In this document: piece by piece, positions 1,318 through 45,825 of the stretch
How the letters are laid out: every line of letters starts with the position of its first letter
Numbering within the stretch: position 1 is the stretch's first letter
Notes under the pieces: generated by a model
The model's database searches: none
Told to the model about the DNA's origin: nothing
What the model saw: the letters and a program-made list of their open reading frames with translations, nothing else
Position numbers and translations under genes: made by a program
IMG/VR virus record: IMGVR_UViG_3300043256_000274
Coordinates: 1-64,000 of that record
Reading direction: 5' to 3' (one strand)
Origin: a virus
Length of the DNA stretch: 64,000 nt

Positions 1318-3828
1318 CTACACTATAAGGTCTCCGCCCTCGGAAGTTATCTCAAGATCCGCAGTGGGAGTCGTGATCTGCAGGTCTCGGCTGACGATTG
1401 CGGGTCCTACGACTCCTGCATCAACAATGGGAGCAGGGATCGCTGTACCTGCTGCGACGGCGGGAATCGCAACCACTTGGTCTGCCGTGACGGTGGGAGC
1501 GGGTACATCAGTCCCAGCCGGAATTGATGGGGCATTGACCGTCTGATCTACCCGATCAGGCGCAACGATCACAGCGGCGACGGGCACTGCGCCAACGTCG
1601 GCGGTTTGGTCGACACGGTCAGGCGCCACGACCACAGCGGCAGCGGGCACCGCGCCGACGTCGGCGGTTTGGTCGACGCGATCGGGCGCAACGACCACGG
1701 CACTCGCGGCGACCGCCGGCACGGACACATTCTGATCGGCTGAGACGTCGATAGCGGGCGCGGGGATGGCCGTAGCGGCTGCAACAGCGGTTACATTGAG
1801 CGTCTGGTCTACGCGCGCAGGCGCGAGGACTGCCGTACCGGCGGCTACTGCCGGCACATTCACCGGCTTATTGATTACCGGCGCGAGGACCGCGGTGGGC
1901 GCGGCAACCGCGGGCACGGCTACAGTCTGGTCAACTCGAGCTGGGGCGAGGACTGACGTACCAGCGGCAACCGCTGGTACGGAAATAAGCTGGTCCCCGA
2001 GAACGGTCGGGGCGGGAATCACCGCCGCCGTGGCGACAGGGGAGACGTTCACGGTTTGGTCGACCCGCGCAGGCGCGAGGACTGCCGTACTGGCGGCGAC
2101 CGCTGGTACGTCGACCGGCTTGTTTATGATGGGCGTGGGGATCACAGTCGACGCTGTCGCGGCGGCGACTGCGAGGGTCTGATCTACGCGAGTGGGCGCG
2201 ACGATCACGGCTGTTGCCCCCACTGCCGGGACGGAAACAAGCTGGTCGCCGAGCACTGTTGGGGTAGGGATCGCAGTCGCCGCCGCGATGGTGTCGACCG
2301 CGAGCGTCTGGTCGATTCGGTCCGGTGCTAGGACCGCGGTCGCGGCAGCTTCCGCTGGTACCGGTGCCGTCTGGTCGACGCGGTCCGGGGCGACGACCAC
2401 GGTCGCTGCGGGCACCGCTGGTACGGCCACCGACTGCGGGAAGCGTACCGTTGGTGCGAGTATCGCGGCTGCCGCGGCGATCGGGGGAAGCTGGGTAGCA
2501 GGGACGGACTGGTCCGTACGGTCGAGTCCAACGATTATCGCCTTCGCGGCGATGGCCGGTACGGTCACGCTTTGCCCGGTGACGGTCTCCTCGATACAGA
2601 GGACCGGAGTCGGCTTGGCGTTGTTAGCTGTGGTCGATGGTGTATAGTCGAACCCGGTGGAGGTGAACGCATCGAAATCCCCGGCATAGGAAAGAGCTCC
2701 TGTGTCGTTGAAGATCGAGAAGAAATCACTGGCAAACGCGGAGGATGAATCGGACGGATCTGTTTCATCCGATTGTGTGTGAAGGCAGCCTTCTGTCAGC
2801 GTGTCCTCGTCGATTGCCGATACTCCTATACCAGCAGCGTTGCCGGACGTCGAAACACCCGCGTTGCTCACCTGGCTTGGGAAAAGAAGCGCAAACTGAG
2901 GTTGGAATCCAGGGGCCGTATAACTCTTTGCACCAGTTGTATGCAAAAGCCCAGGCTGATCTACGTCGTAACCGTTGTTGCCATCGCTGGAGTAGCAGAA
3001 GTACCCAAAGCTGCTCGTAGCACTTGTGATGCGCTTCGTGAGGTGGAAGACCCCGCGTGGTGTCCCATTGACGCTCGTCAGCGTGAGCTCCCAAGCGGTG
3101 ATAAGGGTGCTCCCAGTGAAAGGTGGGGTAGACGCGATGTGGGTCGCATCCACATTTTCACCGTGTCGGTTGGCTGGATTTCGAGCGTCCTGATCAGTCC
3201 ACGACTTGTGAGATTGGTCGATCGTCCCTGAGTGGTCTGCACCGAACCCGAAGGAGCAGGCAGCATCAGCCGTGACCGTCGAGGAGAATGCGTTGGCTTT
3301 CGGGTGACCGATGAAGACAACCTCGGGCCGCACGGTCATATCCGTAAGCGTTATCACCCGTGCCGAATTCACCAACTGTGAGTCATTGAGGAACGTGCCC
3401 GCCTCGACGTGACAATCGTCACCCGTGAACATGATCACAGTGAAACGCCGTGCGGCACCAGGCGTCCCGGCCCAGGTCAGTCGCAGCCCATCCGTGATCG
3501 TAGAGGCATCAGCCTCCATGTTGGTCTCGACGCCGGTTCCCGTGTTATTCGAGAACTGGATGCACTTGGTCGTCGACCCCATGTGGGTCGCCTGGGACGG
3601 GTCTGTATTGTGCTCCGAGAAGTAGGAGCAGGCCCATTCCCGGGTAAAGTCCGTCGCGCCCATTCCAATGTGGGCATCGTCGATCGGTGTAGTGCCGTCT
3701 GCAGTTGCCTCACCCCAGAAGAACAGTGCACCCTTCGGCGTACCAAACCCGGATACGGTTATATCCTGGGTGGCGCCAGTGGTCCCCACTGCTGTGTGGA
3801 CGACTCGAATGTCAACGCCGGCAGCCAT
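1318..3828 (-). CDS. Large virion protein with 18 degenerate repeats
   Basis: An 836-residue protein. Residues 1 to about 415 form a Gly/Thr/Ser-rich beta-type domain without catalytic motifs. From about 415 to 805 it consists of roughly eighteen degenerate repeats of 20-24 residues with the core VPAVAAxTxVLAPxRVDQ. A short tail rich in Thr and acidic residues ends in SEGGDLIV. Size, composition and location among head and neck genes suggest a virion fibre, collar or decoration protein. It is unlikely to be the major capsid protein because of its length and repeat content. Confidence 0.6.
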   Translation of the reverse strand: MAAGVDIRVVHTAVGTTGATQDITVSGFGTPKGALFFWGEATADGTTPIDDAHIGMGATDFTREWACSYFSEHNTDPSQATHMGSTTKCIQFSNNTGTGVETNMEADASTITDGLRLTWAGTPGAARRFTVIMFTGDDCHVEAGTFLNDSQLVNSARVITLTDMTVRPEVVFIGHPKANAFSSTVTADAACSFGFGADHSGTIDQSHKSWTDQDARNPANRHGENVDATHIASTPPFTGSTLITAWELTLTSVNGTPRGVFHLTKRITSATSSFGYFCYSSDGNNGYDVDQPGLLHTTGAKSYTAPGFQPQFALLFPSQVSNAGVSTSGNAAGIGVSAIDEDTLTEGCLHTQSDETDPSDSSSAFASDFFSIFNDTGALSYAGDFDAFTSTGFDYTPSTTANNAKPTPVLCIEETVTGQSVTVPAIAAKAIIVGLDRTDQSVPATQLPPIAAAAAILAPTVRFPQSVAVPAVPAATVVVAPDRVDQTAPVPAEAAATAVLAPDRIDQTLAVDTIAAATAIPTPTVLGDQLVSVPAVGATAVIVAPTRVDQTLAVAAATASTVIPTPIINKPVDVPAVAASTAVLAPARVDQTVNVSPVATAAVIPAPTVLGDQLISVPAVAAGTSVLAPARVDQTVAVPAVAAPTAVLAPVINKPVNVPAVAAGTAVLAPARVDQTLNVTAVAAATAIPAPAIDVSADQNVSVPAVAASAVVVAPDRVDQTADVGAVPAAAVVVAPDRVDQTADVGAVPVAAVIVAPDRVDQTVNAPSIPAGTDVPAPTVTADQVVAIPAVAAGTAIPAPIVDAGVVGPAIVSRDLQITTPTADLEITSEGGDLIV
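1414..2575 (-). repeat. In-frame degenerate tandem repeats (about 18 units)
   Basis: The coding sequence repeats a unit of about 60-72 bp that encodes VPAVAAxTAVLAPxRVDQ-like peptides, with alternating connector types (DRVDQ, TVLGDQ, INKP). The units are degenerate at DNA level in most pairs, but two adjacent ones (about 1570-1700) are nearly identical, suggesting recent duplication or conversion. Copy number could change by slippage or recombination. Confidence 0.85.
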
Positions 3829-11138: not shown

Positions 11139-11546
11139 CTACAAGCAACCTTCATGCTTTATTTCATCGCCGACTTTCATCTCGAAGCCGTGACCATAGT
11201 AGCCGTTGTGCCAGTTGTAGATGTGCAAGTACAACGTTTTCTTCGTCAAAAATAAGAAGCCACGCGGGCGCAGCTTGAAGATGGCGAATCCACCGCCATC
11301 ATCCGACTCTTCGCCTTCTTGAAAGAACGATGGGTCGAATTCATAGTTCTCCCAATCGGAGAAATCGCCTTCATCTTCGGTGCTGTTCCAACTGAGTTCC
11401 GTCATTGGCTCGTTCACGACGAGCCATCCGAAGTTCTCACATCAGCCGTGGTCAGCGTCGAAACCGACGAAGACGTTGTTCTCGTCAATCCAGTTGTAAT
11501 GGTTGCCCCAGTCGTTAGGGTTTTGCTTGCCTTCAAAGAACTTCAT
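11139..11546 (-). CDS. Hypothetical protein interrupted by an in-frame UGA (possible Sec, readthrough or nonsense)
   Basis: An ATG at 11546, overlapping the stop of the Acb2-like gene (CTATGAAG), opens a 34-codon frame, MKFFEGKQNPNDWGNHYNWI and on, that stops at UGA 11442-11444. The same frame continues without a break as CENFGWLVVNEPMTELSW and runs to a fully open 3' part containing HNGYYGHGFEMKVGDEI. Read through, it is one 135-residue protein with UGA immediately before a Cys. From memory, related phage proteins have a Cys pair at this point, which I could not check. If UGA terminates, the distal part would start at GTG 11417 or ATG 11405, neither with a clear ribosome-binding site. Confidence 0.5.
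11407..11425 (-). promoter_or_regulatory. Hairpin just downstream of the in-frame UGA (SECIS-like geometry)
   Basis: GGCTCGT and ACGAGCC pair perfectly around the loop CGTGA, beginning 17 bases after the UGA and placing the loop about 23 bases from it. Bacterial SECIS models ask for a stem-loop in this distance range with a G in the first two loop bases, which is met. Similar hairpins are common in this genome, so coincidence is possible. Confidence 0.3.
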
Positions 11547-11737
11547 AGCGCGGCCCTCACTGCGGCGTCCTTGGCTTCGAGCAGCTTGCGCAGCGCGACC
11601 GTGGTCTCAGGACTGTCGGGCTCACGGTTGGCGACTTCATGCGCGAGATTGTAGAATGACTGACCGACTTGTTGGAGATGCCCCGGCAGATGCCAGACAT
11701 CGAAGAAAGGGAGTACATGCTCGATTGAAGGGTGCAT
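11543..11737 (-). CDS. Acb2/Tad1-hairpin-like small protein (anti-CBASS candidate)
   Basis: A 64-residue protein. The C-terminal half, FYNLAHEVANREPDSPETTV followed by LRKLLEAKDAAVRAAL, follows the helix-turn-helix pattern of the Acb2/Tad1 hairpin family (Phe-x3-Leu-Ala, then P-D-S-x-E, then a Leu-x-Lys-Leu-x-E-A-x3-A helix). Acb2 proteins are phage sponges that bind cyclic oligonucleotides and block CBASS. Length is typical. The assignment is by remembered pattern only. It is coupled to the UGA-interrupted gene downstream. Confidence 0.5.
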   Translation of the reverse strand: MHPSIEHVLPFFDVWHLPGHLQQVGQSFYNLAHEVANREPDSPETTVALRKLLEAKDAAVRAAL

Positions 11738-26925: not shown

Positions 26926-27302
26926 CAGGCTTTCTTTCCGTGCTTGAAGGGTCGGGTCTTGTTGTATTCGTGCTTGACCAGCGCCGCGGTACCGAGGTCA
27001 ATGCCTCGAGCCCCGCAGTAGTCGGCCAGGCGCAGGAAGATGTCGGCGCACTCTTCCTCTTCGCAGGTCAAGTCGGGGCACTTTGCGGAGGGCTCATCCG
27101 GCCCTCTTCGAACACACTCGATGACCTCGGCGACCTCGCAGGTAATCAGACCCAGCTTGGCGACCAGGCCCATCGGGGTGTAGCACTCCTCACTCCAGAA
27201 ACCATTCTTGACCACGAGCTCATGGGCGTTGCTCACGACTCGCGCGATGGCGTCGATGAATTGCTTGCCCGATGCCTGTGGTTGTCCGGCTGGTCTTCTC
27301 AT
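26925..27302 (-). CDS. MazG-like nucleotide pyrophosphohydrolase
   Basis: A 125-residue protein with LVAKLGLITCEVAEVIECVR and EEEECADIFLRLADYCG, matching the EExxE..ExxD metal-site arrangement of MazG-like all-alpha NTP pyrophosphatases. These hydrolyse NTPs or dNTPs, and phage members can affect ppGpp levels or nucleotide pools. The ATG at 27302 overlaps the upstream stop (TCATGAGA). Confidence 0.75.
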   Translation of the reverse strand: MRRPAGQPQASGKQFIDAIARVVSNAHELVVKNGFWSEECYTPMGLVAKLGLITCEVAEVIECVRRGPDEPSAKCPDLTCEEEECADIFLRLADYCGARGIDLGTAALVKHEYNKTRPFKHGKKA

Positions 27303-28531
27303 GATACTTCGAGGGTGAAGGTTGCGTCGCACTGAGGATGCGCACATGGGATTCCGGAGAGGCCTTCAAGCGGCCATCCACTGACGGGCATGTCGACCGG
27401 GAAGAGCGTATTGCACTTCATACACTGAATCTGAACGTACGATTCGGCTGGCTGCGGGAAGCTGCGACCGACGCGCATGTTCTTGGCCTTGCCGGTGCTC
27501 AGGTCGATGTCGCCGGTGATTGCCTCGCGGATCTTCCGGCCTTGCTCGCTATGTATGGGATGGTTCTGGAGATTCGGCTCCGCGCAACTGATTCGGCCGG
27601 TCACGGTCTGCCACTGCCTGCGAGCTTCGCCAGTGTCGACTGGCACTGTGTCGAGGAAGTCGCGCAGACTTTGGTCCTGTTCGATTGCTTCCTGTACGGC
27701 CTCGTCCATATTGGAGCTGCCAATCGACACGTCCTTGTACTTGTCGTACTGACACTTCGGGTCGTCGAACTTGTTCTTGCACGTCTCAATCGTATGGTCG
27801 TCTGTGTTCGGGTCGGGCGGGCCGTGGTCGAAGCCAGGTAGCGACCTGTCGCGCTTCTCGCGGGTCTTGTGGCAGGTCCCGCAGGTTTCACTACCCAGAG
27901 GAGCGTAGCCGCTGATCGTGCCGGGGATGTTCTCCCAATCGTGCGAGTTCCCCCGCGCCTTCGCTCGGCACCGGAGTTCGTCGACCACACTCTGGACGTG
28001 GGCCGTCGACCATTTGCCATCCACTCCCGATGGAAACCACACGTCGCGGCCGGTCTCTTCCTTGACGATGTCCATGGCCTCTTGGGCGGACCAGTTTCCC
28101 CTAATCGACCTGTTGACGGCATCCCTGCGAAGCCTGATCTCTTCCAGGATGGGATTAGTCGAGGCCGGCATCATCTTCTCGGCTGCACGCTCGATGTCGC
28201 CCAGGGGACGAGCATTCGGCTTGTTCCACGGGTGGTCGTGGCTTAGATCACCCGTAAAGATGTCCAGCCTCGGAGCCGGGTGCAGGTAACCGCTCGGGTC
28301 GACGTCCGTCTCGTCGATCGTGCCTGCCTCGGCAGTCCGCACGAACTCGTCGCCATAGCTCGAGGCTACGAGCTCACCGACCTCGACGCGGTAGCACTTG
28401 TCCGGATCGGCACCAGACGTGGCGAGCTCGCGCATCATGTCTTCCATGGCGCCACGATCCGATTCGGCTGTCACCACCCCACCTTTGAGGAAGCGACCTT
28501 CTTCGTACACTTTCCAGCGTATGTTCTTCAT
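27299..28531 (-). CDS. Unknown 410-aa protein with a PolA-like nucleotide-binding segment and zinc fingers
   Basis: Starts MKNIRWKVYEEGRFLKGGVV. Near residues 315-345 it contains TVTGRISCAEPNLQNHP and SEQGRKIREAIT, closely similar to the stretch that precedes motif A in family-A DNA polymerases, but no motif A, B or C follows. Before it are Cys pairs (ETCGTCHKTR; CKNKFDDPKCQ), after it a CMKC/CAHPQC zinc-ribbon end. It may be a chimera, a decayed polymerase piece or a convergent sequence. The phage also has a full PolA elsewhere. Confidence 0.55.
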   Translation of the reverse strand: MKNIRWKVYEEGRFLKGGVVTAESDRGAMEDMMRELATSGADPDKCYRVEVGELVASSYGDEFVRTAEAGTIDETDVDPSGYLHPAPRLDIFTGDLSHDHPWNKPNARPLGDIERAAEKMMPASTNPILEEIRLRRDAVNRSIRGNWSAQEAMDIVKEETGRDVWFPSGVDGKWSTAHVQSVVDELRCRAKARGNSHDWENIPGTISGYAPLGSETCGTCHKTREKRDRSLPGFDHGPPDPNTDDHTIETCKNKFDDPKCQYDKYKDVSIGSSNMDEAVQEAIEQDQSLRDFLDTVPVDTGEARRQWQTVTGRISCAEPNLQNHPIHSEQGRKIREAITGDIDLSTGKAKNMRVGRSFPQPAESYVQIQCMKCNTLFPVDMPVSGWPLEGLSGIPCAHPQCDATFTLEVS

Positions 28532-28533
28532 AA

Positions 28534-28668
28534 TCAGTCGGTGTGAATTCGTGCAACGCAGATTCCGAATATGAAATAGAACCGGTAGCTGTGGTGTCCT
28601 CCGTTTGCCGCAGGCACTTTGCGATGGCTCGTGGAAAACGGGAATCGCATGTGGCTCCAAATGATCAT
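28534..28668 (-). CDS. Small basic protein, 44 aa
   Basis: MIIWSHMRFPFSTSHRKVPA and on, ending ICVARIHTD. The ATG overlaps the stop of the 111-residue gene upstream (AAATGATC) and the stop comes just before the next start. Possibly membrane-associated (YRFYFIFGICV). Function unknown. Confidence 0.45.
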   Translation of the reverse strand: MIIWSHMRFPFSTSHRKVPAANGGHHSYRFYFIFGICVARIHTD

Positions 28669-42219: not shown

Positions 42220-43595
42220 GACAGCCTCCGGTTGATGATCTCTGTGTATTCTTCGGACTGCTCAATCAGAATGCAGTCTACGCCCTCTTCACGACAGGCA
42301 ACTCCAGTCGTTCCCGAACCTGCGAACGGATCAAGAATCACTGTCCCCTCGGGCATCGTGACGAGCCGCACTAGGTATCGCATGAGTGAGAGCGGCTTCA
42401 CAGTCGGGTGAGTATTGTCCTGTCCTCGATCCTTCTTCGAAGCCTTGGCACAGTAGAAGAAGCGGGAGGCGCCGCCGGTCGATGCCGGTACATCAGAGGG
42501 GTACGCCTGTTCCCCATCACCGGCCCAGCCCTTCTCGTAGGTGTGACGATTCTTTTCTGAGTGTCGCTTTGACTTCGAGCTACGGGCTCCGCTCTTGAGT
42601 TCTCCACTTTGCGCGTTGAGCAGCGCCCCCGCCTTCTCGTCGAGTACGAGGTTCGCGGGCCAGCGCCCCTTCGATTGATCGAACTCTCGGGGCTTCGCGT
42701 TTGCGTGAAATGGCCGCGAGTTTTCTCCGCCGAACTGAAGCGGCGGCTGTCCGCTTCCGCCCGCTTTGGGGCCTTCAATCCGACACCCGTCCACGTTCAA
42801 CCCCGCGACACCGTGCGCGAGCGCGTTCGCGGCGAAGGTGCCGTCGAGCGGCTTCATGGCGAGCACGATCGGCTCCCACGCAGGCTTTAGCGCGGTGCCC
42901 CAGCCATTCCAGAGTTGGGCGGCTTCGGTTGTGTGTTCGTACGACTTGCCAGGCAAGCCCATACCGTAGACTGTCCCATCTCCGCGACGATCTGTTCCAT
43001 CGCTCGACACCAGTAGCCGTAGATCGGCTGCTCGTACTTTCTCACGCCATTGAGGATTAACACCTAGCTCAGAAACCAGACGGTTGTAAGCGTCTAGTGA
43101 AGGTACGCGGAAGCCGTGATCTACACGCTCCCAATTCTCCGTGACAAAACCATATTCAGGAAACAGCGCGGCTAGGGATTTTCGTGACATGCCCTTCGCA
43201 ATACGGCACGTCCTGATATTCCTCGCCATTGATACTCTAGCTTCTCTATGAAGACCATCTGAGCCTCCAGCCTTGTCGATCGCCTTCGACACGTCGAGCG
43301 ACTTTGGGAAGCCCGACCCATACAGCCACATCATGCAGTCGCGTATCTGGAATCCTGCGTCTTCGAGCGAACACGTCAGTCGGTGATACGTCCTCGTCCC
43401 ACCGAACACCAGTGCGATGCCTCCGGGTTTGAGAACACGAAGCGCTTCTTCCCACACCGCTGGTGCGGGAAGAACCTTGTCCCAGCCCTTACCCATGAAC
43501 TCCAGAGCGTAGGGAGGATCGGTTACGATAGCGGTGACAGAGTTATCCTCCATGTCGCGCATGGCTTCGAGACAATCGGCGTTGATGATGTTCAT
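42216..43595 (-). CDS. DNA methyltransferase, DPPY type, with an inserted HTH-like segment
   Basis: A 459-residue N4/N6-type methylase. DPPY is at 26-29 and the SAM motif LDPFAGSGTTGVACREEGVD is near the C-terminus, the beta-group order. Residues about 125-185 (NIRTCRIAKGMSRKSLAALF and on) look like an XRE-type HTH inserted between the two halves, perhaps the target-recognition region. Expected specificity is unknown. It follows PolA and may protect the phage genome. Confidence 0.85.
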   Translation of the reverse strand: MNIINADCLEAMRDMEDNSVTAIVTDPPYALEFMGKGWDKVLPAPAVWEEALRVLKPGGIALVFGGTRTYHRLTCSLEDAGFQIRDCMMWLYGSGFPKSLDVSKAIDKAGGSDGLHREARVSMARNIRTCRIAKGMSRKSLAALFPEYGFVTENWERVDHGFRVPSLDAYNRLVSELGVNPQWREKVRAADLRLLVSSDGTDRRGDGTVYGMGLPGKSYEHTTEAAQLWNGWGTALKPAWEPIVLAMKPLDGTFAANALAHGVAGLNVDGCRIEGPKAGGSGQPPLQFGGENSRPFHANAKPREFDQSKGRWPANLVLDEKAGALLNAQSGELKSGARSSKSKRHSEKNRHTYEKGWAGDGEQAYPSDVPASTGGASRFFYCAKASKKDRGQDNTHPTVKPLSLMRYLVRLVTMPEGTVILDPFAGSGTTGVACREEGVDCILIEQSEEYTEIINRRLS

Positions 43596-45568
43596 GATAT
43601 TTCGCCCCAGTTGGGGCCGGTTTCCTTGTCGACTTTGTGAGGTACGTTGCAGGGCACGGCGTTGACCATGATCTCAGCCAGGTGGTCGATCTCATGTTGA
43701 TGCCAGAAGGAGAGGTCGAGCTCGTCGTGTACCTGTAGCTGGAGTCGGATGCCGGCGTCGTCGGCGTCGACCATGGCCTTCTTCATCTGGTCCGCGCTGG
43801 AGCCTTGGATCAGTTTGTTGAGAGCCAGGTGTGTCCAGTCGTAGCTTCCGCTGCCATCTTTCTTGAGAGGGAATCGTCCGTGACGACCGAGGACAGTCTT
43901 GATAAAGCCGCGGGCCTTCGCACGGTTCTCTGCACGACGCGCGAGTTCAGACAGGAACGGCACGCGCTCCTTGAAGAGTGTCAGTAGCTTCTGGCCTTCT
44001 TCGCCAGCAACCTCCAGGTCCCGCCCTCGAAGTGTGATCCACTTCGTCGGCAGGCCGAGGCTACGGCACAGCTTGGCGCCGCCCATGGCGTAGCACAGAC
44101 CGAGGTAGATGATCTTTGCGGCGTCGCGATGCTTCTTGCGTTCCGACTTGTCCCAGGAGTTCCACGCATCATCCCCATGGATAAGCTGGGTCATCATGTT
44201 GTGGTTGTCGGTGGACGGATCGCTGCGGTAGCGTTCGGCTGCTTCGTGAGCGCCGATGCAGTTGGAGAGTTCGGCGAAGTGGACGAGCCATCTCGGCTCC
44301 TGCTGCGAGTAGTCCAGGCACGCCCATTCGGCTCCCTCATCCGGGAGGTAGATCGCGCGCCACAGCTTGCCGATCTCAGGATCACGGGCAGGTTGTTGTT
44401 GCAGATTGGGGTCCCCGGAGGAGAGTCGGCCGGTAATGGTACCGGCCGACCCTCCGTCTTCCTTCTGTCGGCGTAGCTGGTGGAATGTGCAGTGGATCCG
44501 ATCGCCGATAGCATGTGTGCGGATGGATTCGATGAAAGTGGTACGCAGCTTGTTGAAGCGACGAGCTCGGAGGAAATGGTTGACGACCGGGTGGTCTCCC
44601 AAGGCTTCGAGGACTTCCTTCTTGATGCTCGGCTTCCCACTCTTGGGCGTCAACGGCAGCTTGCATCCGGTCGCAGCCTCGATCGCCTTGGCGACGACAG
44701 TCGGACGGTTGATGTCGGCGGTCGTCACGGTTACACCGCTGAGTCGCGTGACCTCCGCGAGCGAGGCCTTCTCCTCCTGGAACGTCTTGCCCTCGACGAT
44801 GTCGAGATGGTCGAAGTCCACGCGCACACCGCGGCGACGCATCTTGATCAACACCGGCATCAGACGTGACTCCAGGTCATACAGGTCCCAGAGCCGTGCG
44901 CCTCGGTCGTCGGCGTCGTCGACCGCTTGGATACGCCTTTCCTGTTTCTGAATAAGGGGCAGAAGCCGACTAGCGTCGGCTTCTGCGTAAGGCCCCACAT
45001 GACGCGCCGGCAGCTTCCACATCTCGGACTTCGCATTGATGCCGAACATCGCTGCGGCCTGAACTAGGTGGCTCTCGTTCTTCCCCTCGAACCCGTTGCG
45101 AGTGAGCACTGCGTCCAGACTGTACTTCATCTGGTTCTCGTCCAGCAGCGGCTCCGCGATCTGGATGTCACGGAAGAAGCGCACAGCTCGGAATACAATT
45201 CCGAGCTGGGCCATGTAGTCGTAGTCGTACGACCCGTTCGCGGTGACCATATCTCCCTTGAATACCTGCGCCTGCTGGCGCAGGTATTCAAGTGCTGCCT
45301 TCGCGTCGACATTGTCCCCGCCCTCATGGTCGATGGGCACGTAGAAGCACGGGGCATTGGCCAGATTCTTCGAATCTGGCCACTCGATCGCGAACGAGAA
45401 GCCCACCACTCGGCCCTTGCGACGCACGCCCGGCCCGGTCTTCGTGAGGTCCGGGTCACACGTCTCGATGTCGAAGGCTACGCGCCTTGCCCCCTCCCAA
45501 CTTGGCAAGTCTGCCAAGTTGGGAGGTCTCCAGTCTGTAACCGGCGCAAACAGAGGAAGTTGAACCAC
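43592..45568 (-). CDS. polA: DNA polymerase I family (PolA) with 3'-5' exonuclease
   Basis: A 658-residue family-A polymerase, GTG start at 45568 overlapping the upstream TAG. The exonuclease motifs are FDIETCDPDL, NGSYDYDYM and YAEADASRL; the polymerase has TGRLSSGDPNLQQQPA, motif A DYSQQEPR, motif B KIIYLGLCYAMGG and motif C QVHDELD. It lacks a 5'-3' exonuclease domain. Four or five perfect hairpins are inside this gene (44425, 44959, 45257, 45358, 45493), the highest density in the window. Confidence 0.9.
   Translation of the reverse strand: MVQLPLFAPVTDWRPPNLADLPSWEGARRVAFDIETCDPDLTKTGPGVRRKGRVVGFSFAIEWPDSKNLANAPCFYVPIDHEGGDNVDAKAALEYLRQQAQVFKGDMVTANGSYDYDYMAQLGIVFRAVRFFRDIQIAEPLLDENQMKYSLDAVLTRNGFEGKNESHLVQAAAMFGINAKSEMWKLPARHVGPYAEADASRLLPLIQKQERRIQAVDDADDRGARLWDLYDLESRLMPVLIKMRRRGVRVDFDHLDIVEGKTFQEEKASLAEVTRLSGVTVTTADINRPTVVAKAIEAATGCKLPLTPKSGKPSIKKEVLEALGDHPVVNHFLRARRFNKLRTTFIESIRTHAIGDRIHCTFHQLRRQKEDGGSAGTITGRLSSGDPNLQQQPARDPEIGKLWRAIYLPDEGAEWACLDYSQQEPRWLVHFAELSNCIGAHEAAERYRSDPSTDNHNMMTQLIHGDDAWNSWDKSERKKHRDAAKIIYLGLCYAMGGAKLCRSLGLPTKWITLRGRDLEVAGEEGQKLLTLFKERVPFLSELARRAENRAKARGFIKTVLGRHGRFPLKKDGSGSYDWTHLALNKLIQGSSADQMKKAMVDADDAGIRLQLQVHDELDLSFWHQHEIDHLAEIMVNAVPCNVPHKVDKETGPNWGEIS
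44425..44450. repeat. Perfect intragenic inverted repeat, arms 11, loop 4
   Basis: GTCGGCCGGTA and TACCGGCCGAC flank ATGG, inside polA, at the conserved TGRLS region. Confidence 0.9.
44959..44986. repeat. Perfect intragenic inverted repeat, arms 12, loop 4
   Basis: GCAGAAGCCGAC and GTCGGCTTCTGC flank TAGC, inside polA. Confidence 0.95.
45257..45292. repeat. Perfect intragenic inverted repeat, arms 16, loop 4
   Basis: Sixteen-base arms (45257-45272 and 45277-45292) flank TGCT, inside polA. This is the longest perfect hairpin I found. Confidence 0.95.
45358..45382. repeat. Perfect intragenic inverted repeat, arms 11, loop 3
   Basis: TGGCCAGATTC and GAATCTGGCCA flank TTC, inside polA. Confidence 0.9.
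45493..45526. repeat. Perfect intragenic inverted repeat, arms 15, loop 4
   Basis: Fifteen-base arms (45493-45507, 45512-45526) flank AGTC, in the exonuclease-proximal part of polA. Confidence 0.95.
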
Positions 45569-45825
45569 TAGAAGCCTTGCATCCCTACAAACGCTTCCTT
45601 GGTCCTGGCTCGCCACTCTGCTTGGGGGAACGAGTGTGCGTAGAGGAAGGCGATGATCTCGGTCGCTCCAAAGCCACCACGACAGCCCCGACCTTCCAAG
45701 TCCATCATCGCGGGCTGAGGTCCGTGTAGGTGGCAATAGACCTCGTAGGCACGCTCGGTCACCTTGGTGTTGACGCGAGGATGTTCGTGAGGGTGGGTAT
45801 GTATTTGAATTGGATGAAGGATCAT
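45568..45825 (-). CDS. Hypothetical protein, 85 aa
   Basis: The ATG at 45825 (MILHPIQIHTHPHEHPRVNT) overlaps the stop of the methylase fragment (CAATGATC). Residues about 22-60 (KVTERAYEVYCHLHGPQPAM, GRGCRGGFGATEIIAFLY) are conserved-looking, with a winged or HTH-type look. It ends QGF* overlapping the PolA GTG. Function unknown. Confidence 0.5.
   Translation of the reverse strand: MILHPIQIHTHPHEHPRVNTKVTERAYEVYCHLHGPQPAMMDLEGRGCRGGFGATEIIAFLYAHSFPQAEWRARTKEAFVGMQGF

Follow-up and report, generated by a model that had tools for sequence, protein, structure and literature searches.

A candidate selenocysteine UGA at a conserved cysteine of a phrog_10011/DUF7448-like gene in an uncultured bacterial virus

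An in-frame UGA in a minus-strand phage gene

The window, by which we mean the whole stretch of 64,000 nucleotides analysed here, comes from a single IMG/VR virus record of 76,410 bases, from an uncultured bacterial virus. This record carries terminase, portal, primase, DNA polymerase, ribonucleotide reductase and ThyX genes, and the phage tRNAs found in it are those for Asn and Pro only. We could not find a close isolate for the 76,410-base record; the terminase and primase sequences point, vaguely, to phages of Pseudomonadota. The main DNA polymerase of the window lies at 43592-45736, separate from a 453-aa protein (27299-28660, minus strand) that has a marginal match to DNA_pol_A over residues 348-382 (34.4 bits, versus a cut-off of 34.3). 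An 836-aa protein at 1318-3828 (minus strand) matched no PHROG or Pfam family.

On the minus strand we identified a gene interrupted by a UGA codon, with the following features.

11139..11546, minus strand: gene of 135 codons plus TAG when read through the UGA at codon 35 (UGA35), phrog_10011/DUF7448-like
11442..11444, minus strand: in-frame UGA, codon 35, where the family motif C-C-E has its first Cys
11439..11441, minus strand: codon 36, TGT, second Cys of the conserved pair
11406..11426, minus strand: SECIS-like hairpin with an 8-bp stem and the 5-nt loop CGUGA (11414-11418)
11415..11417, minus strand: GTG, the longest restart downstream (92 aa), within the hairpin
11187..11216, minus strand: conserved motif NWHNGYYGHG, residues 111-120, intact, 3' of the UGA
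11543..11737, minus strand: 64-aa gene, the upstream neighbour, common to many phages

The gene begins with the ATG at 11546, meets TGA at 11444-11442 as its codon 35, and ends with the TAG at 11141-11139. The initial annotation had described a 34-codon frame that stops at this UGA and stays open beyond it from a Cys codon (TGT), and both statements are borne out, the open frame continuing to the TAG. The stop codon of the upstream 64-aa gene overlaps the start codon of the UGA-containing gene in an ATGA, and this overlap supports ATG 11546 as the start of translation. If the UGA is translated as selenocysteine (Sec), the protein reads MKFFEGKQNPNDWGNHYNWIDENNVFVGFDADHG-U-C-ENFGW...NWHNGYYGHGFEMKVGDEIKHEGCL.

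UGA terminates 12 of the 16 large genes of this phage and is thus an ordinary stop, ruling out a reassigned genetic code. Among the other same-frame joins across UGA, of which the main ones were tested, the polymerase and ThyX are ordinary neighbours and the rest match no family, so that, of the recognised families in the record, only that of the gene studied here was found with a UGA interruption. Thus, neither reassignment nor general decay accounts for UGA35. If the metagenome assembly contained an error at this base, of sequencing or of consensus, or had captured a variant from a minority strain, the real codon would be TGC or TGT; this would fit with a reading that depends on one IMG/VR record and is decided by one base. 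Random errors would seldom strike this codon, however, and we noticed no other broken gene among the recognised ones, and we consider such an error unlikely.

Family membership and the conserved cysteine pair

The joined 135-aa protein matched the profile of phrog_10011, a PHROGs v4 family of unknown function, with an E-value of 3.1e-19 (residues 12-126 against profile positions 5-119 of 125), and the Pfam family DUF7448 (PF24240) with 18.4 bits, which lies under the curated cut-off of 27 for membership. In a tblastn search it matched 33 isolate phage records, 31 of them with a coverage of at least 80%. The full-length profile match, and the full-length relatives that extend across the UGA, indicate at the level of sequence that the two halves of the frame are one gene. 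The AlphaFold2 model of the protein is confident (pLDDT 88) and mostly beta, with the Cys pair predicted in the loop before the strand at 38-44 and the HNGYY motif in the loop after the strand at 105-112. Fold searches returned viral relatives only, some of them named DUF7448, with weak Foldseek matches to those (E 0.03-0.2); a search of PDB folds gave no match of note (the best VIA-align Z of 3.5 being uninformative), and no solved relative was found by sequence.

The same relatives bear on whether the locus holds two separate genes, or a restart at GTG 11417. A 92-aa frame is indeed present at this GTG. However, starting there would lose the Cys-Cys-Glu strand, and no ribosome-binding site is visible before it, which agrees with the earlier remark that downstream starts lack a convincing one. 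None of the relatives examined is split by design, and none of those checked is annotated as two genes. Relatives ending at the UGA position and relatives with the halves as separate genes had been named beforehand as refuting outcomes, and neither occurs, the relatives being full length. We give this explanation hardly any credence.

Alignments with 14 isolates and with 49 virus-contig sequences place UGA35 on the invariant first Cys of C-C-E. The codons at this site are TGY-TGY-GAR in about 100 viral relatives, and TGA-TGT-GAG in the studied sequence only. Relatives from cellular genomes carry C-C-E in 11 of 12 cases, the remaining one (L201) departing from the motif. No stop codon was found at the site in any of the roughly 100 viral and 12 cellular relatives checked. 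All motifs 3' of the UGA are intact in the alignments, and only the UGA codon itself looks abnormal.

We additionally identified tandem phrog_10011 paralogues in a Morganella phage (L074:1174-1851), the first copy of which carries G-C-E and not C-C-E, and a phrog_10011 gene apparently frameshifted directly before C-C-E in L067 and L068 (about 1545-1578). In collections from which near-identical records had been excluded, we could not find a second UGA-bearing relative, either in viral contigs, using patterns that covered both U-C and C-U, or in genome contigs; the matches to the UGA-Cys-Glu and Cys-UGA-Glu patterns (L096-L099 and L181-L189) were all unrelated. The near phage relatives identified via the terminase reached at most 58% identity, and the gene was absent from all of those stretches. 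The family is patchily distributed and is probably accessory.

A patchy, probably accessory family is what would be expected if the gene were dispensable and had suffered a recent nonsense mutation, from TGC or TGT to TGA, leaving a non-functional 34-aa peptide and an undecayed remainder. One base change would suffice, this phage usually ends its genes with UGA, and the rest of the gene is as intact as a recent event would predict. Such a mutation would nonetheless need to have struck the invariant Cys by chance, UGA35 being one among the 61 nonsense codons that single-base changes could create in the gene, and to have been followed, also by chance (2-4%), by a hairpin of SECIS grade. Furthermore, no nonsense codon was seen within the body of the matched stretches of the other relatives, among which there is one frameshifted sequence (L067/L068). 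We regard a recent nonsense mutation as the most credible of the alternatives and still as rather improbable.

The downstream hairpin and the selenocysteine reading

The UGA is followed by a 15-nt spacer (11441-11427), and then by the stem TGGCTCGT (11426-11419), the loop CGTGA (11418-11414) and the stem ACGAGCCA (11413-11406), forming 8 Watson-Crick pairs with an energy of -11.9 kcal/mol. The initial annotation had reported a perfect hairpin of 7 bp, which is correct as to the pairing and one base pair short as to the length. Its loop, placed there about 23 bases from the UGA and with a G among its first two bases, lies at a measured distance of 23 nt and has G at position 2 and U at position 3. 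The published constraints on bacterial SECIS elements are a loop of 3-9 nt, a stem of 4-16 bp, a spacing of 16-37 nt, G within the first two loop bases and an energy of -7.5 kcal/mol or lower (PMC13188914). The hairpin satisfies them all, including the distance rule that had first been invoked for it, and a G followed by U in the loop corresponds to the consensus.

Among 83 family members this hairpin ranks strongest, at -11.9 versus -7.6 kcal/mol for the next. The runner-up (L017), which encodes Cys, has a 7-bp hairpin of matching place, spacing and loop length; the shared peptide W-(L/F)-x-x-x-E-P favours such pairing and partly dictates the L017 hairpin, which may be a coincidence or a relic. 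Stems of at least 8 pairs, wobble allowed, occur at SECIS spacing after 6.6% of all positions, and Watson-Crick stems of 8 bp after 1.8% of in-frame codons in the 16 large genes. An equal or better SECIS-compatible hairpin follows 2.6% of in-frame codons in the phage and also arises in 4.2% of cases when the same peptide is recoded synonymously; total fold energy is ordinary, being matched by 17% of these recodings. Taken by itself, the hairpin is weak evidence for Sec, since chance gives an equal result at 2-4% of comparable positions. No Rfam SECIS family matched the site, three weak matches being due to chance.

UGA is the leakiest stop codon in bacteria, and this leakiness would favour ordinary readthrough, with Trp or Cys inserted by a near-cognate tRNA and possibly two products as a result. 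Readthrough does not predict a UGA on an invariant Cys, however, the short form of 34 aa would be without most of the fold, and neither of the phage tRNAs found, for Asn and Pro, is of the kind proposed. We attach very little probability to it.

We judge the chances to be slightly better than even that UGA35 is read as selenocysteine in a 135-aa phrog_10011/DUF7448-like protein, and favour this reading over a recent nonsense mutation and an assembly error taken jointly, which together fall short of an even chance; this weighing is a judgement and was not computed. A UGA on a conserved Cys, with homologues that carry Cys, is to judge from the alignments the classical Sec/Cys-homologue signature, and its placement on the invariant Cys goes well beyond chance. 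The invariant Cys counts in full, because it could not have been known when the site was first picked out; the hairpin counts for less, because it had partly drawn attention to the site.

For Sec to be inserted, ribosomes would initiate at ATG 11546 through coupling with the upstream gene at the ATGA overlap, and a host complex of SelB and Sec-tRNA would bind the hairpin 23 nt past UGA35. The motif would then read Sec-Cys-Glu, with Sec where Cys normally stands. This presumes a host that makes Sec, binding of SelB to the hairpin, and a chemically active first Cys, so that Sec is tolerated or useful there. We found no SelA, SelB or tRNA-Sec in the 76-kb phage record, and the initial observation that neither a SelB nor a SelC gene is present therefore holds.

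Several findings speak against Sec. The UGA allele is known from one sequence only, the first of the Morganella phage paralogues has Gly at the site, L201 is without C-C-E, and there is no sign that the phrog_10011 family is redox active. Where selenocysteine, readthrough and a recent nonsense change had initially been offered side by side, the Sec/Cys-homologue signature now speaks for the first, which is still a candidate given the one sequence and the lack of Sec genes in the phage. That the gene encodes a phage selenoprotein made with host Sec machinery, in a family from which Sec is not known, we take to be an evenly balanced proposition.

UGA-containing thioredoxins on virus contigs and comparison with known systems

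To judge the prior for a phage selenoprotein, we searched virus contigs for the pattern A-x-W-U-G-P-C, which also returned chance matches. We identified about 30 contigs, some overlapping or duplicate, each with a gene for a thioredoxin (about 110 aa) in which UGA occupies the position of the first active-site Cys, as in MNKLTLAELNSIYPLGENRIGKPIFIDFYADW-U-GPCKMFEQVLNEV.

UGA thioredoxin contigs: L233-L237, L240-L242, L244, L245, L247, L253, L254, L257-L259, L261, L263-L265
UGA thioredoxin contigs, continued: L269, L271, L272, L274, L277, L284, L290-L292, L294

In nearly all of them a hairpin loop lies 22 nt after the UGA, mostly within (U)UGAGC-AGGU-GCUCA(A); individual pairs are altered in some of these hairpins (L257, L284), and L235, L258, L272 and L290 show a second register. 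Their neighbours include a UvsX-like recombinase, a DnaB-like helicase, a Mom-like protein and ribonucleotide reductase, and terminase matches were also found in a 48.7-kb and a 94-kb UGA-thioredoxin record. No SelB was found in ten records tested, nine of which carry the UGA thioredoxin, the tenth (L243) being a pattern match without a thioredoxin frame; the thioredoxins would thus use host machinery. These sequences are very probably phage-borne selenoproteins, and given them we regard the prior probability of a phage selenoprotein as low yet not negligible.

We additionally identified a second type of thioredoxin-like protein in L230, L246, L252, L289 and L293, which measures about 370 aa in complete copies and has UGA in place of the first active-site Cys (...FIASFATW-UGA-GPCQSEAP). 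A third thioredoxin-like UGA frame lies on a 116-kb virus contig (L279:4654-4986), reading MYFGATW-U-GPCKKM, with a 6-bp hairpin and an AGUU loop.

A 2026 review of the prokaryotic selenoproteome makes no mention of phage selenoproteins (PMC13188914), and our literature search did not find a paper on them; the nearest published case concerns Basilisk-like phages, for which a tRNA-Sec gene has been claimed (PMC6145125). If the Sec reading is true, standard phage annotation truncates such genes at the UGA, and phage infection would hinge on a host trait, Sec decoding. The invariant Cys of a widespread, uncharacterised phage family would be chemically active, providing a first handle on its function. 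Such a selenoprotein, along with the Sec-thioredoxins, would imply that phages possess SECIS elements of their own and make use of the 21st amino acid.

The studied protein resembles other phrog_10011/DUF7448 proteins in its full-length homology, in C-C-E (here UGA-C-E), F-D and HNGYY-x-H, and in its predicted beta-rich fold, and differs in its UGA at the first Cys, seen in no other member. With bacterial selenoprotein genes of the E. coli fdhF type it shares a UGA at a conserved Cys, homologues with Cys, and a stem-loop with G-U in the loop at a spacing of 23 nt; in contrast to these, it is a phage gene with no Sec machinery alongside, in a family in which no second Sec homologue was found and which is not known as redox active. 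Compared with the Sec-thioredoxins of virus contigs (e.g. L253, L254, L284, L290), which are a known redox enzyme from an unrelated family, present in many copies and with a canonical AGGU loop, it has in common a phage-borne UGA at a conserved Cys, a hairpin loop at almost the same distance from the UGA (23 versus 22 nt), and a setting without SelB, as in the thioredoxin records tested.
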